DNA from: Acidimicrobiaceae bacterium
Lineage (GTDB): Bacteria > Actinomycetota > Acidimicrobiia > Acidimicrobiales > Aldehydirespiratoraceae
Length of the DNA: 64,000 nt
Assembly (NCBI GenBank): GCA_028819005.1
Contig: JAPPMP010000005.1
Location: 212,246-276,245, forward strand
Direction: 5' to 3'
The notes beneath the pieces were generated by a model that was not told the origin of the DNA, ran no database searches, and was given only the letters and a program-made list of their open reading frames with translations. The translations under genes were made by a program, and so were the position numbers. Of this stretch, positions 11,992 to 32,522 are shown piece by piece. Positions within the stretch are counted from its first letter, which is position 1; every line of letters starts with the position of its first letter.

Positions 11992-12633
11992 ATGACGGAA
12001 ACGGAACTTGCTGTCGCCGACACTGATCAGGGTGAAGTCTTGATTGTCACCGACGCCGCCCGCGCGACCGTGCTCGACATCCGTTCCAACGAGGACGATG
12101 CAGAATCACTGGGGCTTCGCGTAGAGGTGACCGGCGCCGGCGGGGTGGACTACACCTACGACCTGTCTCTTGAGCCGATCGCCGAAAAAGCCGAAGACGA
12201 CCACACCCATACCAAAGACGGGCTGACGGTGATCGTTCCAGCGCTCAGCGTCTCGGCTCTGACGGGCGCAACGCTCGACCTTCCGACCAACGCGGCCCAA
12301 GGGGGCTTGGTGATCCGCAACCCGAATCGTCCGAATCCGCTCGGCGATATGGGTCAACTCGAATTGACCGGCGACGCAGCCGACAAAGTGCGCACTCTTC
12401 TGGCCGAGCGGATCAATCCCGCGCTTGCCTCACACGGTGGTTACGCCGAACTGGTCGGCGTGGAGGGTGACCGGGCGTTTGTGACCATGGGTGGGGGCTG
12501 TCAGGGGTGCGCTATGAGTGCAGCCACTCTGCGCGATGGGATTTCCAAGGCGATCCTTGAAGCCATCCCCGAGATCACAGAAGTGATCGACACCACCGAA
12601 CACGACCAGGGCGATAACCCCTACTACACGTAA
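11992..12633 (+). CDS. nfuA: NfuA-like Fe-S cluster carrier
   Basis: A 213-residue protein with a degenerate A-type (HesB-like) N-terminal domain and a C-terminal Nfu domain. The Nfu cysteines are in GGGCQGCAMS (Cys170 and Cys173), which bind a [4Fe-4S] cluster between two subunits. The N-terminal domain lacks the conserved cysteines of true A-type proteins, as in NfuA. It delivers Fe-S clusters to target enzymes; this window encodes several (MoaA, formate dehydrogenase subunits, RecB-like nuclease). The stop codon lies within a 7-bp tandem duplication (12627-12640). Confidence 0.9.
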   Translation: MTETELAVADTDQGEVLIVTDAARATVLDIRSNEDDAESLGLRVEVTGAGGVDYTYDLSLEPIAEKAEDDHTHTKDGLTVIVPALSVSALTGATLDLPTNAAQGGLVIRNPNRPNPLGDMGQLELTGDAADKVRTLLAERINPALASHGGYAELVGVEGDRAFVTMGGGCQGCAMSAATLRDGISKAILEAIPEITEVIDTTEHDQGDNPYYT

Positions 12634-12640
12634 CACGTAA
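12627..12640 (+). repeat. 7-bp tandem duplication spanning the nfuA stop
   Basis: CACGTAA is repeated directly (12627-12633, 12634-12640); the first copy contains the TAA stop at 12631-12633. Confidence 0.8.
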
Positions 12641-12654
12641 CTTTTACCACTTTT

Positions 12655-12673
12655 GCCGGGCGTAGCCGGAGCC
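12655..12673 (+). repeat. 19-bp intergenic repeat shared with 24319-24337
   Basis: GCCGGGCGTAGCCGGAGCC matches 24319-24337 with one substitution (T to C). One copy lies between the convergent nfuA and dxs genes, the other just after tRNA-Ala. Function unknown. Confidence 0.6.
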
Positions 12674-12762
12674 ACCTCATCCCAAATCTGCGCGAAAACC
12701 GACAAAGATTGTAGCTGAACGCGCAAATTTCGGGTTGGTGGATGGGGTGAGCGGGGGTTGGG

Positions 12763-14592
12763 CTAGGGGCCGAGCAGGGCCCGGACTTCGGTGGCGATGC
12801 TCCTTGCGTCGAGACCGAATCGGGCGTGGATGTCGTCGGGTTTGGCGTGAGGGACGTACTCCACGGGGATCCCCAACACCCGAATACGGCAGTCAGTGTC
12901 ACGGTCGCCGAGCGTGTCGCGGACTGAGGCGCCGGCACCGCCGATCCGCAACCCGTCCTCGACGGTGACAACCACATCGTGTTCAGCGATGTCGTCGATC
13001 ATCCTCGGATCGAGCGGAACCACCGCTCGCGGGTCGTACACCGTCGTCTCAATGCCGTCGGCCGCAAGCAAATCAGCAGCACCCATTACCGCGCCCAGCA
13101 TCTGACCGAATCCGAGCAACGCAACCCGCCCGTCGCCGACGCGAGTCTTGTGAGCGTTGAGGCCGGCGCCGACCTCATTGTCGGCCACGTGTGCAGCCGG
13201 ACTGCGCGACCAGCGGATAGCCACGGGACCGTCTGTGAGGTCCATGGCGTCCTCCATCATCTGTTGGAGTTCCTGGTAGCTCGAAGGAGCCAGCACAGTC
13301 ATTCCAGGCACCTTCGTGAACAACACCATGTCCAACAGCCCGTGGTGCGATGCGCCGTCGGGACCGGTCACTCCAGCTCGGTCCACGCAGAAGATCACGG
13401 GTTGGCCATGCAATCCGACATCAAGGTTGACCTGATCAAAAGCCCTGCTCAGGAAGGTCGAGTACACTGCGACGACGGGGCGAAGGCCGCCCATGGCCAT
13501 CCCCGTCGCAGCAGTAACGGCATGCTGTTCGGCAATGCCCACATCGAAGCACCGCTCTGGGAATCGATCCCGGAAAGGCAGTAGACCGGTTGAATCGGGC
13601 ATTGCGGCGGTGATCGCCACGAGTTCGGGATGTTGATCGCCCAGCTTCACCAGGGTCTCAGAGAACGCAGCCGTGTAAGACCCCTCCTTCACCGACCCGA
13701 TGTCGTGCATGTTCTTGATCGCGTCGTTCTCTGCGGGAGCGTAACCACGGCCCTTCTGGGTCAGCACATGCACCAGGACCGGTCCGTCGAACTCGGCGGC
13801 GTTGTGCAGCGCCTCCTCTAGAGACTCGATGTCGTGGCCGTCGAACGGACCGATGTAGCGGATACCGAGGTTCTCGAAAAAAGCCGGCGGTTCCCACATC
13901 TCGCGGATCGCGGCCTTCGACATCTTCACGCCGCGCTTGATCTGCTCGCCAACCCAGGGGATGCGCTCAGCGATCTCCTCGACCTTCGCCTGTCGGCGCA
14001 TGTAGATCGGATTGCTGCGAATCTTGACCAGGCTCTCGCTCAAACGGGAGACCGTGGGAGCGTAGGAGCGGCCATTGTCGTTCAAAACGATCACCACATC
14101 GCGCCCGCTGTGCCCGAGATTGTTCAGCCCCTCGAAAGCCATGCCGCCGGTCAGGGCGCCGTCACCGACGACAGCCACCACCCGCCGACGCTCATCATTG
14201 GCGTGAAACGCGGTTGCCAGGCCGTGGGCATAGGACAACACCGTTGATGCATGACTGTTCTCAATCCAGTCATGCTCGGACTCCGCCCTCGACGGATACC
14301 CCGACAACCCGCTTTCCTGACGCAGATGACGGAACCCGGCGAGTCTTCCCGTCAGCATCTTGTGGACGTACGCCTGGTGCCCGGTGTCCCACAGGATCGC
14401 GTCATGCGGTGAGCGGAACACGCGGTGCAAGGCAACGGTCAGTTCCACAGCGCCGAGGTTGGATCCCAGGTGACCGCTGTGCTCATTGACCGCCGAGACG
14501 ATCTCGGCCCGGATCTGCTCGCAGAGATCGTCGAGTTCTTCGAAGCTGCGGCCTTGCAGATCAATTGGGCCGTGGATGGCATCAAGGCGCAT
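12763..14592 (-). CDS. dxs: 1-deoxy-D-xylulose-5-phosphate synthase
   Basis: A 609-residue thiamine-diphosphate enzyme that condenses pyruvate and glyceraldehyde 3-phosphate in the first step of the MEP isoprenoid pathway. It shows the N-terminal HLGSNLGAVELTVALH segment, the GDGALTGGMAFEGLNN thiamine-diphosphate motif, DVGIAEQHAVTAATGMA with the catalytic Glu, and DRAGVTGPDGASHHG of the pyrimidine domain. ATG at 14592 (MRLDAIHGP) is the usual family start; longer in-frame starts run into the 3' end of the PAP2 gene. The PAP2 gene upstream on the same strand ends 43 bp before it. Confidence 0.96.
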   Translation of the reverse strand: MRLDAIHGPIDLQGRSFEELDDLCEQIRAEIVSAVNEHSGHLGSNLGAVELTVALHRVFRSPHDAILWDTGHQAYVHKMLTGRLAGFRHLRQESGLSGYPSRAESEHDWIENSHASTVLSYAHGLATAFHANDERRRVVAVVGDGALTGGMAFEGLNNLGHSGRDVVIVLNDNGRSYAPTVSRLSESLVKIRSNPIYMRRQAKVEEIAERIPWVGEQIKRGVKMSKAAIREMWEPPAFFENLGIRYIGPFDGHDIESLEEALHNAAEFDGPVLVHVLTQKGRGYAPAENDAIKNMHDIGSVKEGSYTAAFSETLVKLGDQHPELVAITAAMPDSTGLLPFRDRFPERCFDVGIAEQHAVTAATGMAMGGLRPVVAVYSTFLSRAFDQVNLDVGLHGQPVIFCVDRAGVTGPDGASHHGLLDMVLFTKVPGMTVLAPSSYQELQQMMEDAMDLTDGPVAIRWSRSPAAHVADNEVGAGLNAHKTRVGDGRVALLGFGQMLGAVMGAADLLAADGIETTVYDPRAVVPLDPRMIDDIAEHDVVVTVEDGLRIGGAGASVRDTLGDRDTDCRIRVLGIPVEYVPHAKPDDIHARFGLDARSIATEVRALLGP

Positions 14593-14635
14593 GGGTGTCC
14601 TATGGCGGCGGCGAGGGCTGTGCGAGTAAGAGATC

Positions 14636-15496
14636 TTAGCCATTCGGGACCGCACTTGTGGAACGGCTCCGGTGGGATCCGCCGGGCAAGAACGGGGTGA
14701 GTATCGGAGCCAACAGCAGTCCCAGAGCCACAGACACAAGCCCGCCCACGGCGTCAATCCAGTAGTGGTTGGCTGTGACCACGATAGAAAAAAGCGTCAG
14801 AAGCGGATAGGACGCCATGACCGCCCGTGTTGTACGCCGCTTCAACACCGGATACAAGCCGATCATGCACCAGACTGACCAAGCGACATGCAGGCTCGGC
14901 ATTGCCGCGTACTGATTCGAGATCGCCTCCATCGTCCCCGACTCGAAAGACCACAGCCCACCGGGATCAACCAGCGTGTCGACATAGTCGTGATAGTCGT
15001 GTCCCGGCCTGCAAATCCCGTACTGCGAAGCACAGTTCGACAACAGTCGTGGCGGCATCAGCGGATACAGCGCAAAACCGATGAGGGCCGAAGCCGTGGT
15101 GACCGCCAGAGCCGACCGCATCAAGATGTAGCGGGCCGGGAAACGGACGAACAGATACACCATCACGAAGATCGTGACGATGAAATGGAACGACCCGTAG
15201 AAGACGTTCCAGAACACGATGAACCATTCCCAGTCGAGGAACTGTCGTTGCACCCACTCCTCGAGGTAGAGCCCCATGGCTTTCTCAATGGCGATTATGT
15301 CGAGGGCGTTCTCGTAGGAGCGCTGCCGGACACTGTCGCCGAGGGCTGAACCGAACTGGTTCCTGATAGCGGAATAGACGATGTAGAAGGCCAGCGTCAT
15401 CCCGGCCTCAAGCCACCACTTCAACACTGGCCCCGACGACGGGTTGCCTTCGACACTGGCGGCGTGCTCTGCTTCGACGCGCATTGGCGGTACCAT
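14636..15496 (-). CDS. PAP2-family membrane phosphatase/phosphotransferase
   Basis: A 286-residue integral membrane protein of the PAP2/AUR1-like group. Motifs are PPRLL, AMPSLHVAWS (PSxH, catalytic His) and TANHYWIDAVGG (His-x3-Asp). About six hydrophobic segments are visible. Actinobacterial members act on lipid phosphates or transfer inositol phosphate groups; which applies here cannot be told. The ATG at 15496 was chosen because AGAGG lies five bases upstream; an in-frame ATG follows at 15484. The gene is divergent from tldD, with less than 50 bp between starts. It lies upstream of dxs on the same strand, so a role in isoprenoid or envelope lipid metabolism is plausible. Confidence 0.85.
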   Translation of the reverse strand: MVPPMRVEAEHAASVEGNPSSGPVLKWWLEAGMTLAFYIVYSAIRNQFGSALGDSVRQRSYENALDIIAIEKAMGLYLEEWVQRQFLDWEWFIVFWNVFYGSFHFIVTIFVMVYLFVRFPARYILMRSALAVTTASALIGFALYPLMPPRLLSNCASQYGICRPGHDYHDYVDTLVDPGGLWSFESGTMEAISNQYAAMPSLHVAWSVWCMIGLYPVLKRRTTRAVMASYPLLTLFSIVVTANHYWIDAVGGLVSVALGLLLAPILTPFLPGGSHRSRSTSAVPNG

Positions 15497-15506
15497 AGCG
15501 ACCTCT

Positions 15507-15540
15507 GGACCTTGGAGTTGCACGGACCTTGGAGTTGCAC
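15507..15540 (+). repeat. 17-bp tandem repeat carrying the tldD ribosome site
   Basis: GGACCTTGGAGTTGCAC occurs twice without a gap (15507-15523, 15524-15540) directly before the GTG start of tldD. Each copy contains TTGGAG, so the ribosome binding sequence is duplicated; the second copy is at the correct distance from the start. Confidence 0.85.
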
Positions 15541-15541
15541 A

Positions 15542-16933
15542 GTGCTTGACCATGAGTTGATCAACCGCACCCTCAGCACTGCGCTGAGCACGGGGGCGGA
15601 GTTCGCAGAAGTGTTCGTGGAGGACAAGAAGTCATCGTCGGCCATGCTCGACGACGGACGGGTCGAAGAATTGACGAGCGGCCGGGACCGAGGCGCCGGC
15701 ATTCGTGTGGTGGTCGGAGACACAACCGGTTTCGCGCACACAGCCGATCTCTCCGAAGCCGGACTTGCTGGGGCGGCCGAGGTCGCAGCGGCCGCGGCCC
15801 GGGGCGGAGGAGGCGGAACACGCACTGTCTCAGTCGGCAGTCACGGTACCTCGGCCGGCGCAACCGCCAAGATCCCGCCCGAAGACGTGGCCAAGACCGT
15901 CAAAGTTGAGCTGCTGGCGCGAGCGGACGCCGCAGCACGAGCGGAGGGGTCGCAAATCTCGCAGGTCGCGGCTCGCTACGGCGACAGCCGACGCCGGATC
16001 CTGGTGGCCAACAGCGACGGACTCCTCGCCGAAGACGACCAGATCCGCACCCTGTTCTCGGTATCGTGCGTGGCCACAGGCGACACCGGCCTGCAGACCG
16101 GGCGCGAATCGGTTGGGCGAACCATCGGCTTCGAGCTCTTCGAAGAGACCGACGTAACCGAACTGGCCCGGCGGGCAGCCAACCGGGCGATAACCAAACT
16201 GAGTGCACGCCCTGCACCCTCCGGGACGATGCCTGTGGTTGTCGGTCCCGGCGGCGGGGGAGTGTTGTTCCACGAAGCGTGCGGCCACGGCCTCGAAGCA
16301 GACCTCGTAGCCAAATCGGCGAGCGTCTTCGCCGATCGGGTCGGTGAACAGGTGGCCACGCCCCTCGTCACCCTCATCGACGACGGCACCATGGCCGGCG
16401 AATGGGGGCACTTTGCGATCGACGACGAAGGTCGAGAAGCCGCACACAACGTATTGATCGATCGAGGCGTGCTCACCGACTACATGTGGGACCACCTGCG
16501 TGCTCGCAAGCAGGACCGGCCGAGTTCGGGCAACGGTCGACGCCAGAGCTACCAGCACCTGCCGATGGTGCGGATGACCAACACCTACATCAGCAACGGC
16601 GAAGACGACCCGGACGACATCATCTCTGGAACCGAATCAGGCGTTTACGTAGCGCAGCTCGGTGGAGGACAGGTCAACACGGCCACCGGCGATTTCGTAT
16701 TCGGCATGACCGAGGCCTATCTGATCGAGAACGGCGAGATCGGCGATCCGATACGGCAGGGAAACCTCATCGGCAACGGACCCGAAACCCTCCGATTGAT
16801 CGAAGCCGTCGGCAATGATTTTGCGATGGGCTCACCCGGCACATGCGGCAAAGACGGCCAAGGCGTGCCGGTCGGGGACGGGACCCCGACACTGCGGGTG
16901 AAGGCTCTCACTATCGGCGGCACCGCGGCCTGA
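15542..16933 (+). CDS. tldD: TldD metalloprotease subunit
   Basis: A 463-residue TldD protein, the catalytic half of the TldD/TldE peptidase that degrades unfolded or ribosomally synthesised peptides in the cytoplasm. The zinc site is HEACGH (residues 244-249), followed by GLEADLVAK. The C-terminal MTEAYLIENGEIGDPIRQGNL region is typical. The GTG at 15542 has GGAG eight bases upstream; an in-frame ATG at 15464 would read through the divergent promoter region and was rejected. The tldE gene follows after 9 bp, so both subunits are co-expressed. Confidence 0.93.
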   Translation: MLDHELINRTLSTALSTGAEFAEVFVEDKKSSSAMLDDGRVEELTSGRDRGAGIRVVVGDTTGFAHTADLSEAGLAGAAEVAAAAARGGGGGTRTVSVGSHGTSAGATAKIPPEDVAKTVKVELLARADAAARAEGSQISQVAARYGDSRRRILVANSDGLLAEDDQIRTLFSVSCVATGDTGLQTGRESVGRTIGFELFEETDVTELARRAANRAITKLSARPAPSGTMPVVVGPGGGGVLFHEACGHGLEADLVAKSASVFADRVGEQVATPLVTLIDDGTMAGEWGHFAIDDEGREAAHNVLIDRGVLTDYMWDHLRARKQDRPSSGNGRRQSYQHLPMVRMTNTYISNGEDDPDDIISGTESGVYVAQLGGGQVNTATGDFVFGMTEAYLIENGEIGDPIRQGNLIGNGPETLRLIEAVGNDFAMGSPGTCGKDGQGVPVGDGTPTLRVKALTIGGTAA

Positions 16934-24412: not shown

Positions 24413-26074
24413 TTACCGGGGGGCGGGCCGGAAGTCGTTGCGTCCCGTGATGCAGATCGGATCCCCGCTGCGCCGCACGAACGGCAATGGCTGATCGCAC
24501 GGGAACGAGAAGTCCAGAGTCTGGATCGTGTCAGCCATCTGGGTCTTGCCTGGGCGGATCGACGCCGGTGACATCGCGTTGTTGTCGATGGGCCCCAGGT
24601 TGGTGATCGCCTCGCGGACGTCGGCGACAGTCGGGTTGTCACCCGCGTCGTACAGCCCGCGAGCCATTATGCGGACGATCCCGCAGACGCTGCCGACCAT
24701 CCCGTAGGCCGAATCGCCCAGGGTGCGCCAGTCATGGCTGGCGCCCGACGGACTGTTCTCGCTGTAGAGACGGTTGCACCCGTCGGCTATCGCGTTGGGC
24801 TCGTAGTCCGGATCCCGGTATTCGCCGGTGGTCCTGAAGTCGATGATCGTGGCGCCGTTGTAGAGGTTGCCGGCCTCGACGTTGTTGGCGATCTGGCCCG
24901 ACACGAGTTCAGAAGTCTGGGAGTTGAAGTCAGAAGCGAAGAAGCGCACATCTCCAGGCTCGTAGCCCTGATTGACCATTTCGCCTATGTAACCGGGGGC
25001 AGAAACCACGTTGAGGACGTTGAAGAAACCGTTCACGCCTGCGTCGACCATGTTGGTGACCGACTCGGCGACGCCACCGAAGCAGATCGTTCCGCCGCCG
25101 CAGTCGATCACATCGAATACGACCTCGAACCCGGCGTCGCGCAACGGAATCACGAGGCCCTCTTCAACAGCTTCAACCTGGCCTGGTGTGTTCGGTGCTG
25201 CGACTCCCAGCGTGAGGCCGTCGAGCTCACCGCTGTTGAGAAGGTCGACGACCATGAAGTGCAGGCTCTCCTCCAGGGTCGGAGACAGCGAGAGCAGCAG
25301 GTCGTTGGACCGGCTCATGAACTCTTCGGTCTGGCCCTGGGTCGAGATGAATATGGTCTCCTGCTCCTCGACTAGGCACAGATTGGCCGTGCCCTGGAAA
25401 CCGGTGCTGTTCATCACGATCACAGACTGATGGTCCTCGGTCATCGCCAAGCAGGCGGCGTTGCGGCTGCCGTCGACATCGGCGCCGAGAACTTCCGCCT
25501 CCGTGTAGCCGAGGTCGAGCATGCGGCCCCTGATCCCGCCGCACTCGGAGTTGATGTAGTCGATGAAGACCTCGAAAATCTCCTTCGGGTCGCCGACTGG
25601 GACGGCGAACCCGAAGTCGGTCAGGTCTTCGAGGCGGCTCCGAATGTGGCCGACCTTGATCGATTCGGCCGTGATCCCGTCGTCGGTGTCGACGCGGTTC
25701 TGAGCTGGATCGTGGCGCAAGCAGAAAACGTCGTGCTGCGCGAACGGATGGTCCCCACGATCAAAGCCCTGCTGGAACTCGGCGAAAATACCGCCCCGGG
25801 GATCCTCGTAGATGTTGGGCCTCGCTTCTTGTTCCTCAGGCGTCCCACTGTCGGTTTCATCACCAGCGTCGTCTCCGGTGGTCGTTTCGGGCGCGTCGTC
25901 ATTATCGCCGACGGTCGTTTCGGGCGCGTCGTCTCCGCTGTCGTCACCCTGTTCGGCTGTGTCTGCGTCGTCGGTGTCGTCGTCCGAGTCGCCGGTCGTC
26001 TCACCACCGCAAGCAGCCGCGAAAAATGAAAAAGCCAGCAGAATTGCAAGCCACCGTAACCGTAGGTTGTGCAT
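24413..26074 (-). CDS. Lipoprotein substrate-binding protein of a Liv-type ABC transporter
   Basis: A 553-residue type-1 periplasmic-binding-protein fold (branched-chain amino acid/amide class). The signal peptide ends in the lipobox FAAAC with lipid-anchored Cys22. An acidic Asp/Glu/Thr-rich linker of about 60 residues follows and contains a repeated DDAPETT, a common tether in Gram-positive lipoproteins. The binding domain begins near ESIKVGHIRS. ATG at 26074 is favoured by GGAGG just upstream. It is divergent from the two fused transporter genes at 26277-31378 and surely supplies them. The protein is longer than usual (about 400) because of the linker and insertions. The ligand is unknown; amino acids, amides or short-chain compounds fit the family. 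Confidence 0.9.
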   Translation of the reverse strand: MHNLRLRWLAILLAFSFFAAACGGETTGDSDDDTDDADTAEQGDDSGDDAPETTVGDNDDAPETTTGDDAGDETDSGTPEEQEARPNIYEDPRGGIFAEFQQGFDRGDHPFAQHDVFCLRHDPAQNRVDTDDGITAESIKVGHIRSRLEDLTDFGFAVPVGDPKEIFEVFIDYINSECGGIRGRMLDLGYTEAEVLGADVDGSRNAACLAMTEDHQSVIVMNSTGFQGTANLCLVEEQETIFISTQGQTEEFMSRSNDLLLSLSPTLEESLHFMVVDLLNSGELDGLTLGVAAPNTPGQVEAVEEGLVIPLRDAGFEVVFDVIDCGGGTICFGGVAESVTNMVDAGVNGFFNVLNVVSAPGYIGEMVNQGYEPGDVRFFASDFNSQTSELVSGQIANNVEAGNLYNGATIIDFRTTGEYRDPDYEPNAIADGCNRLYSENSPSGASHDWRTLGDSAYGMVGSVCGIVRIMARGLYDAGDNPTVADVREAITNLGPIDNNAMSPASIRPGKTQMADTIQTLDFSFPCDQPLPFVRRSGDPICITGRNDFRPAPR

Positions 26075-26151: not shown

Positions 26152-26195
26152 TCACCTCACAGGTTTCCTGGACTCACCTCACAGGTTTCCTGGAC
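26152..26195 (+). repeat. 22-bp perfect tandem repeat in the divergent Liv promoter region
   Basis: The unit (core CACCTCACAGGTTTCCTGGA) occurs at 26152-26173 and 26174-26195 with no mismatch. It lies between the divergent binding-protein and transporter genes, about 80 bp from each start, where a regulator could bind. Each unit contains the imperfect palindrome CCTCACAGG. Confidence 0.85.
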
Positions 26196-26276
26196 AGATT
26201 TGCTTTCTCGATACTGGCGCGGCTCTGCTGGTGCGGTAATGATGTCGGCGCACCGAACCGTCAATCTGGAGGGCCG

Positions 26277-28511
26277 ATGACCAGCCAGGACCGAGATGTT
26301 GAATCCGGAGAGACCGCCGAAGAGTCGCCCGAAAGTTCAGCAGCACGGCTGGCGGCCGCGGTTCTAGACGAGGAAGCGCGTCGTCAGATCGAACAGGCGG
26401 AGAGGGACGAAGCCGTACTGTTCCCCGACGACCTGCTCCCCGGCGTGGGCGACGAGCCGATGTCGTTGCGCGAGGCGATGATCGTCGGAGGCAAGACCAC
26501 TGTGGTGATGATGTTCCTGCTGAACTTCATCGACGACCTGCCCAGGGCCGTGCGGGTGATCGGACCCGACATCCAGAACTCGCTCAACATCTCAGACACG
26601 GTGTTGGCCGGTGTGCTCGGCTTCGGCGGGGTTGCCCTGGTGCTCGGAGCGGTCCCGATGGCGGCGCTGGCGGATCGCGTCACCAGGGTCGCCATAATTC
26701 CCGTCGCCTCGTTGTTCTGGGCGTCGACGATGGCGTTGTCCGGGTTCATAGTCAATGCCTTCCAGCTTTTCTGGACCAACGCCGCAACGGGCTTCGGGCA
26801 GGCGTACAGAATTCCGGTCTCCAACTCGTTGATCAGCGACCGCTATCCGATACAGGCGCGCTCGCGTGTGTTTGCGTTCGAAGCCCTGGGTCGGCCGCTC
26901 GGCCAACTCCTGGGTCCGCTGGCGATCGGTTTGATCGCGGCGATCGCAGGCGGCGAGGAAGGCTGGCGCTGGGCGTTCTACATCATGGCGATCCCACCGG
27001 TGCTCGTCGGTTTGGCCTCGCTGGGGATGAAGGAACCGCCTAGGGGCAAGAATGAACAGACAGCGGTGCTCGAGGACGATGCCATCGACGTAGAGGAACT
27101 CGAGGCGTCGATGAGCACCGCTCTGGCCCGGCTGCGCAAGGTCCGCACCTTCTATTTCCTGGCCACTGGCGTCGGCGTGCTCGGGTTCGCGTTGATCGCG
27201 GTGCCCGGTCAGTTCAACCTTATGCTCGAGGACAAGTACGGACTCGACGCTCTCGATCGCGGAATTGTGGAATCGCTGCTCTGGATTCCCGCGTTGATCG
27301 GGATTCCGCTCGCGGGCCGGGTGTTCGACCGCAAGTTCCGCGAGGACCCCGAAGCTGTGGTCAAGCTGACCGGATCGTTGATCATCGCCGCAGGCCTCGT
27401 CTATCTGGTGGCGTTGCCGATCAAAGACCGTGTGCTGCTGATTGCGGGTGTCGGGCTGGCCCAAGCACTGATCTCGGCCGCGTTCGTGGCCGCCCCGACG
27501 ATCATCGCCCTGGTCTCCCCGTACCGGATCCGGGCACAGGCTTTCGCGCTGCTGCCGGTCTTCATCTTCCTCATGGGGGGATTCGTCGGCGGCCTGATCG
27601 CAGGACAGATATCCGACGCATACAACAACCGCACGGCCATGATCATCCTCGCGCCCTATACCGCCATGCTCGGCGGCTGGCTGATAAGGCGCGGCGCCGG
27701 CCACATACGCCGAGACATCTCCCTGGTGGTGGAGGAACTCCTCGAGGAGCAGTCCGAGGCTCGCAAGATCGCCTCGGGTGAAGCGGTCCCCGCGTTGCAG
27801 GTCCGCAACCTCGACTACAGCTACGGACCTGTTCAGGTTCTGTTCGATGTTGAGATCGAAGTGGCCAAGGGAGAGGTGCTGGCCCTGCTCGGAACCAACG
27901 GCGCCGGCAAATCCACGCTGCTGAGAGCCATCTCCGGTCTGGGCATTCCCGACCGGGGTGTGGTTCGCCTCAACGGGCGCACGATCACCTACGCCGAGGC
28001 CGAGACACGCTTCCGGGTCGGCATTGTGCAGTTGCGGGGAGGTGATGGGATCTTCCCGGCGTTGAGCATCGGCGACAACCTCCGTGCTGCGCTCATGGGC
28101 AAGGAAATGGAGTCCGAGGAAACAGAACTAAGGATTGCCAAGGCCGTCGAGACCTTCCCTGCGCTGCAAAGCAGGCTCGGAGAGCTCGCTGGCGACCTGT
28201 CGGGAGGCCAGCAACAGATGCTGGCTCTGGCAATGGCACTCATCCACGAACCCGAAGTGCTCCTCATCGACGAACTGAGCCTCGGCCTCGCGCCCGTGGT
28301 GGTCCAGGAACTGTTGGAAGTCGTGCAGGACCTCAAAGCGCAGGGTCAGACGATGATCATTGTGGAGCAATCGCTCAACGTCGCTCTGGCCTTCGCGGAT
28401 CGTGCTGTCTTCATGGAAAAAGGCGTGGTCCGTTTCGAGGGGCCCGCGCAGGAGCTCGCTGAGCGCGACGACCTGGCTCGTGCCGTCTTCTTGGGAGGCG
28501 AAGGCGGATGA
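26277..28511 (+). CDS. MFS transporter fused to LivF-type ABC ATPase
   Basis: A 744-residue fusion. After a charged N-terminal tail (1-60), residues about 70-475 form a 12-segment major-facilitator domain (GVLGFGGVALVLGAVPMAALADRVTR, then RPLGQLLGPLAIGLIAAIAGG). Residues about 500-744 are an ABC ATPase of the LivF class: Walker A GTNGAGKST near 538-545, LSGGQQQMLALAMAL near 641, VLLIDELSLGLAP (Walker B). An MFS domain joined to an ABC ATPase is unusual because MFS carriers normally use ion gradients. The stop overlaps the LivHMG gene start by 4 bp, so this ATPase probably serves as LivF for that permease. Whether the MFS part transports, senses or only anchors is unknown. One reading frame, no sign of a frameshift. 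Confidence 0.9.
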   Translation: MTSQDRDVESGETAEESPESSAARLAAAVLDEEARRQIEQAERDEAVLFPDDLLPGVGDEPMSLREAMIVGGKTTVVMMFLLNFIDDLPRAVRVIGPDIQNSLNISDTVLAGVLGFGGVALVLGAVPMAALADRVTRVAIIPVASLFWASTMALSGFIVNAFQLFWTNAATGFGQAYRIPVSNSLISDRYPIQARSRVFAFEALGRPLGQLLGPLAIGLIAAIAGGEEGWRWAFYIMAIPPVLVGLASLGMKEPPRGKNEQTAVLEDDAIDVEELEASMSTALARLRKVRTFYFLATGVGVLGFALIAVPGQFNLMLEDKYGLDALDRGIVESLLWIPALIGIPLAGRVFDRKFREDPEAVVKLTGSLIIAAGLVYLVALPIKDRVLLIAGVGLAQALISAAFVAAPTIIALVSPYRIRAQAFALLPVFIFLMGGFVGGLIAGQISDAYNNRTAMIILAPYTAMLGGWLIRRGAGHIRRDISLVVEELLEEQSEARKIASGEAVPALQVRNLDYSYGPVQVLFDVEIEVAKGEVLALLGTNGAGKSTLLRAISGLGIPDRGVVRLNGRTITYAEAETRFRVGIVQLRGGDGIFPALSIGDNLRAALMGKEMESEETELRIAKAVETFPALQSRLGELAGDLSGGQQQMLALAMALIHEPEVLLIDELSLGLAPVVVQELLEVVQDLKAQGQTMIIVEQSLNVALAFADRAVFMEKGVVRFEGPAQELAERDDLARAVFLGGEGG

Positions 28512-31378
28512 TCGAGCTTCTCGGTCTTGAGATAGGCCAACAGTCGATAGTGATCGGCATCATCGCGGGCCTCACCTATGCCGCGTTGGCGGCAGGTTTC
28601 GTGCTCATCTACCGCTCGACGGGGGTACTCAACTTCGCGCACGGTGAGATGGGCTTCTTCGGTTTGGCGATCTTCGTGATGATGATCATCAACTACGAGC
28701 TGAACTGGTGGATCGCGTTCGTACTGGCGATCGCCGGGACCGCGCTCATCGGGATGGCCGTTGAATTGATCGTGGTCAGGCGCCTGTTCGAATCGCCGCG
28801 CCTGGTGCTGCTGATAGCCACGATCGGGGTGGGTCAGATCCTGACTCTGGCGCGTGTCGGCTGGATCCCCGACATCACTGCCGGAGGAAACATCCCCACG
28901 GCCTTCGAGACGACCTGGGAACCGACGGACCACATCCGCCTGCAGGCACGCGAGATCACGGTGCTCGCGGTGGTCCCGGTTCTAATCGCTCTGCTCGGTT
29001 TGTTCATGACCAAGACCCGCTTCGGTCTGGCTGTAAGGGCTTCGGCGTCCAATCCCGACACCGCCCGGGTCTATGGCATCTCACCCCGTCGTGTGTCGAC
29101 GATCGTCTGGAGCATCGCAGGGGGGTTCGCGGCGGCGACCGCGATCCTCACCGCGCCGCTCCAGGGTTTCCAGGCGGCGACTGTTGACGACACCGGCAAC
29201 CTCTTGGTCGAAGAGCTTCTCCTGAAGGTGTTGGTTGTGTCATTGCTCGCCAAGATGCGGTCATTGCCCGGCGTGATCTGGGCGGGCCTCGCGGTCGGCC
29301 TGATCGAGAAGATCGTTCGAAGCAACGTCGATTCGACCAATCAGTCGATCGTCAATCTCTGGTTCTTCATCACCGTGTTGGTCGTAGTCCTGTGGTTTGT
29401 GCGTTCAAGCAAGGAAGATGTGGGCTGGTCGCTGTCGCCGACGCTGCGGCCGATCCCTGAGCGGCTCCGCAGCATCTGGTGGGTGCGCAACCTCAACGGC
29501 ATCGGGTTCTTCTTCCTGTTCGGGGCGTTGGCCCTGGTCCCGGTCTTTGTGACGAGCTCCTCGCCGATCCTGACCTGGAGCAACATTCTGTTGTTCGCCA
29601 TGGTGGCTCTGTCTTTGACGGTTCTGACCGGATGGGCTGGGCAGCTGTCCCTCGGCCAGTTCGCCTTCGTCGGAGTCGGGGGACTGGCCACCCTGGCGTT
29701 CACCGAAGGCCACGACATTCCGATACCGTTCAACCTGTTCGACCTCAGCATTGACGTGCCGTGGGGGATCGCAGTGATTCTGGCAACCGCGTTGGGCGTG
29801 CTGGTCGCGGTTCTGGTCGGCTTGCCGGCGTTGCGGGTGCGCGGCCTGTTCCTGGCTGTCACCACCCTCGCGTTCGCGGTCATGGCGGGCACTTGGATCT
29901 TCACTCAAGACTTCTTCAGCGGCGGCACGACCGCGCCCCGGCCACCAGACCGACCGGCGTTGTTCGGGATCGACGTCGGGGAGTCGCGGCGGACGTTGTA
30001 TCTGGTCTGCCTCGTCACGCTCGTATTGATGTCTTGGATCGTGACTCGCATCCGCGCCACAGGCATTGGACGCTCGTTCATCGCGGTGCGCGACAACGAA
30101 GACATGGCCGCGGCCTCCACGGTTCCGCCAGGCCGCATGAAACTCGCGGCTTTTGCGGTGGCCGGCGGGATGGCGGCGTTGACAGGCGCGCTCTATGTCA
30201 TCGTCCAACCCTCCCTCAGCCCCGGTACGCAGTTCGCACCGGCCAACTCATTGAGGGTGATCGTAATCGCCATTGTCGGGGGCTTGGGGTCCGTTGCCGG
30301 ACCGGTTCTCGGCTCGCTCTGGATTCTGGGCATTGAACGATTGGTCCCGGATCAGCTCCGCGATCTGCAGCAGCTGCTCACCTCCAACATCGGCCTGTTG
30401 GTGCTGCTCATGTACTTCCCGGGAGGATTGCTGCAAATCGTCTATTCGATTCGCGACGGGTTGCTGGCGGTGGCCGACCGCAAGCTCAGCGATCGCCAGA
30501 CCGGGGACCCACCCCAGGTTGTCGAGCGCAAGCCGGTTCCGACAACGGCGCGACCCGATCCGCCCGCGGTCGACGGTCCAACGCTCGCGGCGCGGGGAAT
30601 CACCGTTCGCTTTGGAGGCAACATCGCCGTGGCCGACGTTGATTTCGAGGTTCACCAGGGAGAACTGGTCGGTCTGATCGGCACCAACGGCGCCGGAAAG
30701 TCGACCCTGCTCAACGCGATCGGCGGATTCATTCCCTCCGAGGGCACGGTCGAAGTCCTTGGAGCAGACGTCACCGACCGCAGCGCCTCGGCCCGTCACC
30801 GTCTCGGACTCGGGAGGGGGTTCCAGGCAGCCCGCCTGTACCCGGGTCTCACGGTTCGCGAGGCGTTGATGGTCGCGTTGGAGGCCCGTCAGCATTCTCG
30901 GCTCGTGCCGTCGATGCTGGCGCTGCCACCGTCGGGCGCCCACGAGCGAGCCAAGCGGAGCGAAGCCGACGAGATAATCGACTATCTCGGGCTGGGCCGC
31001 TACTCGGACTCCTTCATCGAGGCGCTCTCGACAGGCACTCGCCGCATCGTTGAGCTCGGCAGCCTCTTGGCCGTCGACGCACGCGTGCTGCTGCTCGATG
31101 AGCCGACCGGCGGCGTGGCCCAGCGAGAGGCCGAAGCGTTCGGACCGCTCATCAAGCAGATCCAGTCCGAGCTCGAGGCTTCGGTGGTGGTGATCGAACA
31201 CGACATGCCGTTGGTCATGAGTATCAGCGACCGGGTGTATTGCTTGGAGTCAGGTGCGGTGATCGCCAACGGGCCGCCTGAGGAGGTCCGCAACGACCCC
31301 CTGGTTGTCGCTAGCTATCTCGGTACCAACGAGGCCGCCATCCAGCGGTCCGGCACCACTGAGAACGGGGACGACTAG
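28508..31378 (+). CDS. Fused LivH-LivM permease with LivG ATPase
   Basis: A 956-residue polypeptide that joins three normally separate subunits of a branched-chain amino acid/amide ABC importer. Residues about 1-300 are LivH (AAGFVLIYRSTGVLNFAHGEMG). About 325-645 are LivM (LTGWAGQLSLGQFAFVGVG). About 690-956 are LivG (RGITVRFGGNIAVADVDFEV; Walker A GTNGAGKST near 725; LSTGTRRIVELGSLLA as a variant signature; VLLLDEPTGGVAQRE). The canonical LSGGQ Gly-Gly-Gln of the signature is here STGTR, as in some fused homologues. With the MFS-LivF fusion upstream and the lipoprotein at 24413-26074, a complete importer is encoded by three genes. Confidence 0.92.
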   Translation: MIELLGLEIGQQSIVIGIIAGLTYAALAAGFVLIYRSTGVLNFAHGEMGFFGLAIFVMMIINYELNWWIAFVLAIAGTALIGMAVELIVVRRLFESPRLVLLIATIGVGQILTLARVGWIPDITAGGNIPTAFETTWEPTDHIRLQAREITVLAVVPVLIALLGLFMTKTRFGLAVRASASNPDTARVYGISPRRVSTIVWSIAGGFAAATAILTAPLQGFQAATVDDTGNLLVEELLLKVLVVSLLAKMRSLPGVIWAGLAVGLIEKIVRSNVDSTNQSIVNLWFFITVLVVVLWFVRSSKEDVGWSLSPTLRPIPERLRSIWWVRNLNGIGFFFLFGALALVPVFVTSSSPILTWSNILLFAMVALSLTVLTGWAGQLSLGQFAFVGVGGLATLAFTEGHDIPIPFNLFDLSIDVPWGIAVILATALGVLVAVLVGLPALRVRGLFLAVTTLAFAVMAGTWIFTQDFFSGGTTAPRPPDRPALFGIDVGESRRTLYLVCLVTLVLMSWIVTRIRATGIGRSFIAVRDNEDMAAASTVPPGRMKLAAFAVAGGMAALTGALYVIVQPSLSPGTQFAPANSLRVIVIAIVGGLGSVAGPVLGSLWILGIERLVPDQLRDLQQLLTSNIGLLVLLMYFPGGLLQIVYSIRDGLLAVADRKLSDRQTGDPPQVVERKPVPTTARPDPPAVDGPTLAARGITVRFGGNIAVADVDFEVHQGELVGLIGTNGAGKSTLLNAIGGFIPSEGTVEVLGADVTDRSASARHRLGLGRGFQAARLYPGLTVREALMVALEARQHSRLVPSMLALPPSGAHERAKRSEADEIIDYLGLGRYSDSFIEALSTGTRRIVELGSLLAVDARVLLLDEPTGGVAQREAEAFGPLIKQIQSELEASVVVIEHDMPLVMSISDRVYCLESGAVIANGPPEEVRNDPLVVASYLGTNEAAIQRSGTTENGDD

Positions 31379-31389
31379 AGCGGGGGAGC

Positions 31390-31595
31390 CTAGAGCCCGA
31401 GCGGCTCTGTGAGCGGAGCGAGCATGAGCGGGGTGTCTAGAGCCCGAGCGGCTCTGTGAGCGGTGCGAGCATGAGCGGGGTGTCTAGAGCCCGAGCGGGT
31501 CTGTGAGCGGTGCGAGCATGAGCGGGGTGTCTAGAGCCCGAGCGGGTCTGTGAGCGGTGCGAGCATGAGCGGGGTGTCTAGAGCCCGAGCGGGTC
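31390..31595 (+). repeat. 47-bp minisatellite, 4.4 copies, entering the ROK gene
   Basis: Unit starts at 31390, 31437, 31484 and 31531, with a partial copy at 31578-31595. Copies differ by a few bases (GGAGCGAGC or GGTGCGAGC; GGCTC or GGGTC). The partial copy encodes the last residues (DPLGL) and the stop of the ROK kinase, so the array grew outward from the gene end. The GTGAGCGGAGCGAGC core resembles the dispersed element at 3393 and 11874. No spacer-like unique sequence lies between copies, so it is not a CRISPR. Confidence 0.92.
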
Positions 31596-32522
31596 GGCGG
31601 CTACCAAAGCGGCGCCGAGAGCTCCCGACTCGGAGCCGAAGGCGGCCAGCACGACATCGACTCTGGGACGATGCTCTGACCCCAGAAGCAAGCGCTGGAG
31701 CCAGTCGTCGATTCCGGCTCTGAGCGGCTCGCCCACCTCCGCGAGACCGCCGCCGATCACCACACGGCTCGAATCGAGTATCAGTATGAGGTTGGCGATC
31801 CCGCGGGCGGCTTCGCAACAGAAGCCGTCGAAGATCTCCGCAGCGGTCGAATCCCCTTGGTTCAGCGCCACGATCACATGTTCACTGCGAATCTCGCTGA
31901 TGTCACCGACGAGGGCGACAGCTGCGGGAAAATCTCCTGCCGCGGCAGCCTCACGACCGAGACGGCCGAGCCCGTTCCCTGAGGCGAAGTACTCCCACGG
32001 CCCCGGTTCGCCGGTTATGTGTGCGGGACCGCGGGTGTCGACGGTCATATGCCCGGATTCTCCGGCAAAACCGTTGGCGCCCAGGAGCAGATGGCCACCG
32101 GCGACGAAACCGGTCCCGATGCCGCTTCCCAGAGCCACATAGGCGAAGTCGTCGGCGCCTCGCCCGGCGCCGAGCTTTGCTTCAGCCCAGGTGCCCGCAG
32201 TGGCGTCGTTGATTGTGATCACGTTCGTCTGGGTCGTCTCGGCCAAGAGTTGACCAACTGGAAACTCAACAAGGTTCGGCAGGTTGGGGGAGTAGCGAAC
32301 CACACCGGTGCGGGCGGCCAGACCCGCTATGCCGAGCCCCACTCCCTGCAGCGGCTCCGGGCTGCGCTCGGAAAGGTCAGCCACGATTTCCGTCAGTCGT
32401 GCGACGAGTTCATCGCCGCTGCCATGACTGGACTTCTTTTTTCTGGCCACAACCCGACCGTCGTCAGGATCGACGAGCAACCCCAGGGCTTTGGTCCCTC
32501 CAACGTCGATCCCGACTATCAC
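31578..32522 (-). CDS. ROK-family sugar kinase/regulator, zinc motif lost
   Basis: A 314-residue ROK protein. The N-terminal phosphate site is GIDVGGTKALG, the catalytic Asp lies in TINDATAGTWAE, and GSGIGTGFVAGG is the second glycine motif. The usual CxCGxxGC zinc loop is replaced: GESGHMTVDTRGPAHITGEPGPWEYFASG keeps the His of GHM but has no cysteine. There is no HTH domain, so it is of the kinase type (glucokinase, N-acetylmannosamine kinase or similar). The substrate is undetermined. Its stop codon lies in the 47-bp repeat array. It is divergent from the gene at 32577. Confidence 0.88.
   Translation of the reverse strand: MIVGIDVGGTKALGLLVDPDDGRVVARKKKSSHGSGDELVARLTEIVADLSERSPEPLQGVGLGIAGLAARTGVVRYSPNLPNLVEFPVGQLLAETTQTNVITINDATAGTWAEAKLGAGRGADDFAYVALGSGIGTGFVAGGHLLLGANGFAGESGHMTVDTRGPAHITGEPGPWEYFASGNGLGRLGREAAAAGDFPAAVALVGDISEIRSEHVIVALNQGDSTAAEIFDGFCCEAARGIANLILILDSSRVVIGGGLAEVGEPLRAGIDDWLQRLLLGSEHRPRVDVVLAAFGSESGALGAALVAADPLGL

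Follow-up and report, generated by a model that had tools for sequence, protein, structure and literature searches.

The major facilitator (MFS) and ABC superfamilies, both among the largest of the transporters, are presented in teaching as alternatives, the first gradient-driven and the second ATP-driven. HAAT-type ABC importers, such as LivFGHMJK and the urea system UrtABCDE, are assembled from a Peripla_BP_6 substrate-binding protein (SBP), the LivH and LivM permeases, and the LivG and LivF ATPases. A conceptual precedent for an ATPase-energised carrier is ArsAB, in which a secondary carrier becomes a primary pump through its ATPase. ArsA lies outside the ABC proteins and ArsB outside the MFS, and neither has a sequence relation to the MFS-LivF fusion described here, which also differs in that a full ABC importer is present. 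Within the MFS, the Spinster carrier HnSpns has a proton-switch network of Asp41, Arg42, Arg122 and Glu129 and a cytoplasmic gate formed by Asp87-Arg91-Asp142 together with Arg390 (PMC9440201). The switch network is reported to be conserved across Spns proteins (PMC13192786).

The window is a 64,000-nucleotide stretch of DNA, and one of its loci holds all the parts of an HAAT-type system: SBP, LivH, LivM, LivG and LivF (Table 1). Unlike LivFGHMJK and UrtABCDE, the locus has a complete MFS domain ahead of LivF, its H, M and G components are also fused, and the scores of its LivF part fall far short of the LivF and UrtE cut-offs. The chain encoded immediately downstream of MFS-LivF contains BPD_transp_2 in two stretches together with ABC_tran (Pfam). 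The original prediction of a LivF ATPase with a Liv complex encoded next therefore stands, the downstream chain being LivH-LivM-LivG, and the linkage is conserved, as fusions adjoin LivH-LivM wherever the flanks are readable. The LivG signature is LSTG, and Walker A, signature and Walker B were judged intact in both LivG and LivF. MFS-LivF is translationally coupled to the LivH-LivM-LivG chain. The SBP of the window gave a weak score under the Peripla_BP_6 cut-off, and homologous SBPs scored above it. Read from its sequence, the locus spreads a full LivJ/K-H-M-G-F importer over three genes and adds an MFS domain ahead of LivF.

Table 1. Features of the MFS-LivF locus in window coordinates.
Feature	Coordinates	Strand	Basis
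Lipoprotein SBP, LivJ/K type, Peripla_BP_6, divergent	24413..26074	-	Start inferred at Met before lipobox
Ribosome-binding site GGAGGG, 5' of fusion ATG	26268..26273	+	Sequence
MFS-LivF fusion gene, 744 aa	26277..28511	+	ORF, Pfam, AlphaFold2
N-terminal cytoplasmic helix of fusion, residues 18-46	26328..26414	+	AlphaFold2; conservation moderate
Spinster-like MFS domain, 12 TM helices, residues 64-474	26466..27698	+	Pfam, structure matches, AlphaFold2
TM1 Asp86 (= HnSpns Asp41, kept) and Asp87 (= HnSpns Arg42, charge inverted; mostly Glu in family)	26532..26537	+	Alignments
Motif A Asp133-Arg134-Arg137, cytoplasmic gate	26673..26687	+	Alignments
Gln175 (= HnSpns Glu129 proton switch; mostly Lys/Arg in family)	26799..26801	+	Alignments
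Asp188 (= HnSpns Asp142, gate charge relay), near invariant	26838..26840	+	Alignments
Arg328, start of TM8, family-invariant, not in stand-alone sisters	27258..27260	+	Alignments
TM12 and putative coupling helix, continuous, 49 residues, 451-499	27627..27773	+	AlphaFold2, spacing counts
LivF-type ABC ATPase domain, residues 506-744	27792..28508	+	Pfam, NCBIfam, motifs
LivH-LivM-LivG fusion, 956 aa, start overlapping MFS-LivF stop	28508..31378	+	ORF, Pfam

The fusion is encoded by a single open frame with an ATG start. Pfam matched MFS_1 to residues 93-394 (E = 2.4e-33; 115.9 bits against a gathering score of 33.4) and ABC_tran to residues 524-666 (E = 9.7e-28). The AlphaFold2 model, built from an 80-sequence alignment, had a pLDDT of 92.4 and a pTM of 0.89 and consisted of twelve membrane helices plus an NBD; here and below, models come from one run per protein and are of single chains. 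These results bear out the original prediction of one uninterrupted frame for a full 12-segment MFS domain and a complete ABC ATPase. Its intact motifs were located at residues 539 (Walker A, GTNGAGKS), 641 (signature, LSGG) and 661 (Walker B, VLLIDE), and the H-loop position of the LivF part is VEQ. The LivF part scored 148 bits against PRK11614 (cut-off 441) and 183 bits against the UrtE model TIGR03410 (cut-off 286), and because both scores fall under the cut-offs the ATPase part is classed as LivF-like rather than as a LivF or UrtE equivalog. Among the solved-structure matches listed, where ATPase matches alone rank, none spans both the MFS and the ATPase.

A frameshift or mis-assembly joining two separate genes would also produce such a frame. 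The same frame was found at 94-96% identity in independent assemblies (L009, L010 and L050), the genome has, on a different contig, a second full-length copy with 47% identity that adjoins a LivHMG chain of its own, and over 130 other fusions were read besides the window copy. Split genes in close relatives combined with an assembly error at the junction had been named as grounds for abandoning the fusion; instead the frame recurs, and the only relative in which the gene seems split (L230) has a stretch of unknown bases in its linker, an assembly gap. Nothing was found in favour of an artefact, its probability is vanishingly small, and it was rejected.

The taxonomic range of the architecture, a check proposed with the original prediction, was surveyed in genome searches centred within Actinomycetota, and the fusion is recurrent across this group. 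A scan of 84,980 species gave 147 relatives, from which 77 distinct loci were kept; by title these are Acidimicrobiia or other Actinomycetota, save a few MAGs titled just "bacterium". Of the 296 genomes taken from the class, 89 contain the MFS part; about nine-tenths of the MFS matches listed for this set lie in frames long enough for the ATPase. In samples of 396 genomes from Actinomycetota and 297 from one further class, at least 18 and at least 27, respectively, had matches spanning both parts; both counts are lower bounds, since only two or three candidates were scored per genome. Among the best 5000 records of a plasmid search, one matched over the full length; it comes from Embleya (Streptomycetaceae), one named cultured genus with the fusion. 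Many importers in actinobacteria probably bear a plain ABC or plain MFS annotation and may be misread. The fusion is also kept in very small actinobacterial genomes of 1.4-1.7 Mb (L224 and L225, from genomes G705 and G681), where it sits in one tight four-gene operon in the order SBP, MFS-LivF, LivHMG, SBP.

The best solved match of the MFS part is HnSpns (6e8j; E = 2.2e-13, N-half best), and the other Spinster structures matched are SPNS1 (E = 1e-8) and SPNS2 (E about 1e-6 to 1e-5). A likeness to the DgoT/ACS branch of the MFS was also detected, with weak matches to DgoT structures and TIGR00893 as the best NCBIfam match. The MFS part differs from that branch in its score of 83 bits against a cut-off of 395, in a TM4 position 175 that is no longer acidic, and in its fusion to an ABC ATPase. 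With HnSpns, SPNS1/2 and mycobacterial MsSpns it shares the TM1 Asp, the TM4 Arg in most members, motif A and the charge relay; unlike them it has an inverted or lost Arg42-Glu129 pair, a new invariant Arg and the ATPase.

Conservation of the gating residues, also proposed as a check, was measured across 56 fused members. The Spinster motif A and charge relay are present in the MFS part: the HnSpns Asp87 position is Asp in 46 of the 56 (Asp133), and the others are near invariant (Arg137, 56/56; Asp188, 55/56; Arg419, 56/56). The proton switch has a different fate. The Asp41 position is Asp or Glu in 52/56 members, and the Arg122 position is Arg in most members and Asn in the window. HnSpns Arg42 is lost, as position 87 is Glu or Asp in most members, and Glu129 is lost, as position 175 is acidic in 1 of the 56. 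An acid occupies position 87 in 32 of the 33 members with Lys or Arg at 175 (60 family members; Fisher p about 1e-6, relatedness ignored). The window and its clade have Asp87 and Gln175; the titratable acid is gone and the reversed Glu-Lys/Arg pair is not installed. The Asp41/Arg42/Arg122/Glu129 switch by which Spns membership is judged is thus incomplete, and because Arg42 and Glu129 are lost the alignments place the MFS part as Spinster-derived and not a canonical Spns carrier. Arg328 is present in 60/60 family members and 0/6 stand-alone sisters, and an acid at position 98 has a similar pattern.

No helix of the MFS part is better conserved than TM1, and across the family the MFS parts are only about 30% identical. 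Comparison with three close relatives gave a dN/dS of 0.04-0.07 for the MFS part, and LivF was about equal. The MFS part is under strong purifying selection. A decayed passenger MFS was rejected on these values. The MFS could be a scaffold or membrane anchor that stabilises the heterodimeric complex via LivF; its attachment at the N-terminus is a possible anchor site, and where the MFS is missing, Liv systems have F fused to the membrane chain (LivHMFG). One helix would be anchor enough, however, and strong purifying selection with conserved gating residues, although the MFS parts have diverged so far, makes an anchoring role very improbable. Of the three functions originally offered for the MFS part, a second substrate path, a receptor or a scaffold, pure scaffold ranks last in likelihood, given the conserved alternating-access gate and a dN/dS of about 0.05; the sequence is compatible with both a second path and a receptor.

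In the AlphaFold2 model TM12 runs on with high confidence as a single helix almost to the first ATPase strand. The junction is predicted to be a rigid helix of fixed length, not a tether. The gap between MFS and LivF is 21-25 residues in 131 of 138 proteins. In the non-redundant set the interquartile range of this spacing is 21-23 residues, compared with 21-41 for LivF-LivG and 50-59 for LivM-LivG, and the spacing itself varies less than those of LivF-LivG (Levene p = 6e-5) and LivM-LivG (p = 0.0015). MFS-LivF spacing was not significantly less variable than LivH-LivM spacing in the same set, so constancy alone is no proof of mechanical coupling. In a model of the three-domain MFS-LivF-LivG protein of L134 the LivF-LivG linker is predicted to be disordered and the MFS-LivF junction is well predicted; the TM12 helix has one break, at 436-437, and the ATPase pair resembles the ATP-bound DppD pair. 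A keyword search limited to open-access papers, and hence weak evidence of absence, found no description of an MFS-ABC or MFS-LivF fusion; the MFS and ABC domain pair may be listed in domain databases. Each half is of a known kind, and as far as could be tested the conserved combination with a near-fixed junction and an altered proton switch is undescribed.

The reading tentatively adopted, with confidence somewhat short of even, is an HAAT-type ABC importer with a non-proton-driven MFS rocker-switch that is mechanically coupled to the ATPase and driven or gated by it. Such coupling is suggested because the proton-response residues are lost and the alternating-access gate is kept. The fusion would supply the LivF-position ATPase of an importer composed of the SBP, the LivH-LivM pair and the LivF-LivG pair, and the Spinster-like MFS domain would be a permanent extra membrane module on LivF, retaining its gate and lacking the usual Spinster proton response. 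The LivF ATP cycle would drive or gate MFS opening and closing via the TM12 helix, and the MFS would act as a second ATP-coupled substrate route or as a substrate-loading gate beside LivH-LivM. Substrate specificity would be set by the SBP and would differ among paralogues. A primary-active MFS, with its rocker-switch driven by the ATP cycle of LivF via the TM12 coupling helix and one LivF-LivG motor powering the LivH-LivM and MFS pathways in one complex, is unlikely. The original prediction started from the premise that MFS carriers are not ATP-driven; for this MFS part, a member of the Spinster branch without the usual proton switch, that premise may not hold. A conserved and widespread MFS-LivF weld makes ABC powering or gating of an MFS fold directly testable.

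Several observations count against coupling. Closely related Liv systems lack the MFS (the LivHMFG chains of L138, L187, L188 and L189), which indicates that the core needs no MFS. Separate-gene MFS members (L126, L137, L138 and L144, one of them beside an MFS-less LivHMFG operon) indicate that the coupling helix is not always required. The window clade has Asp87-Gln175 instead of Glu-Lys/Arg, and the L134 TM12 helix is broken once. The separately encoded members, one beside a Liv operon (L138), would suit two independent transporters in one polypeptide, with the MFS an ordinary facilitator or antiporter for low-affinity uptake or product export and the fusion fixing only co-location and stoichiometry. 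Conservation of the gate and of TM1 Asp86 fits such a carrier, and the closest relatives with solved structures, HnSpns, DgoT and SPNS, are themselves free-standing carriers. A helical junction of fixed length would be superfluous for mere tethering, however, and the proton-switch residues are inverted or neutral, which leaves an independent carrier somewhat unlikely.

The same altered proton network, the new invariant Arg328 and a predicted rigid helix able to carry a signal count in favour of a transceptor, an MFS that senses a substrate or membrane lipid and allosterically switches the LivF ATPase with no transport of its own. Fusion of an MFS with a signalling part has a precedent in the Sensor Kinase-MFS family 2.A.1.34, listed in PMC3924187. 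A pure sensor could dispense with the gate, whereas the full alternating-access gate is kept here, including the cytoplasmic charge-relay residues, and a transceptor is considered quite unlikely.

Six gene arrangements were read in total. Those with the MFS are MFS-LivF + LivHMG, as in the window, LivHM + MFS-LivF-LivG, and LivHM + MFS-LivF + LivG; those without it are a LivHMFG single chain, LivHM + LivFG, and four separate genes. In the LivF tree a supported group unites the fused LivFs with their closest relatives lacking an MFS and excludes the ordinary LivFs of the same genome. In the MFS tree the fused proteins form two large clades. The stand-alone MFS genes of L126, L137, L138 and L144 nest inside one fused clade, which points to later separation of these MFS genes from fused ancestors. 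A further clade comprises six other stand-alone MFS proteins, which were taken as sisters. The MFS gene of L138 (7962-9347) is a separately encoded member of the family, divergently oriented beside an SBP gene and a single-chain LivH-LivM-LivF-LivG without MFS (12361-16095); here the MFS-Liv partnership may be kept in trans. The H, M, F and G parts in one chain of about 1250 aa, found in L138, L187, L188 and L189, form an otherwise unusual full-length Liv polypeptide. In L186 (7648-9864) a LivF-LivG chain has a 200-residue N-terminal region with several hydrophobic stretches at the position the MFS takes in the others.

Gene context was inconsistent among loci as a guide to the substrate, and nothing specific lies beside the window operon. 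The neighbours in the Streptomycetaceae-like loci L227 and L228 are glycoside hydrolases (GH1 and GH78; GH2 and GH3) along with a galactokinase and a LacI regulator, a context that suggests sugar or glycoside import at those loci. Other fusion loci are flanked by AMP-binding/acyl-CoA enzymes, short-chain dehydrogenases (SDR) and luciferase-like oxidoreductases. As the SBP varies, substrates probably differ from one paralogue to another. The divergent promoter between the SBP gene and the fusion contains a 22-bp direct repeat, ACCTCACAGGTTTCCTGGACTC, with a second copy of 20 bp (window 26154-26195). The repeat has two copies only in the genome and no exact copy in the loci of other genomes, and is not conserved. 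A ROK-family kinase gene (31578-32522, minus strand) lies just downstream of the operon, and its position is kept in the four closest relatives, L009, L010, L011 and L050.
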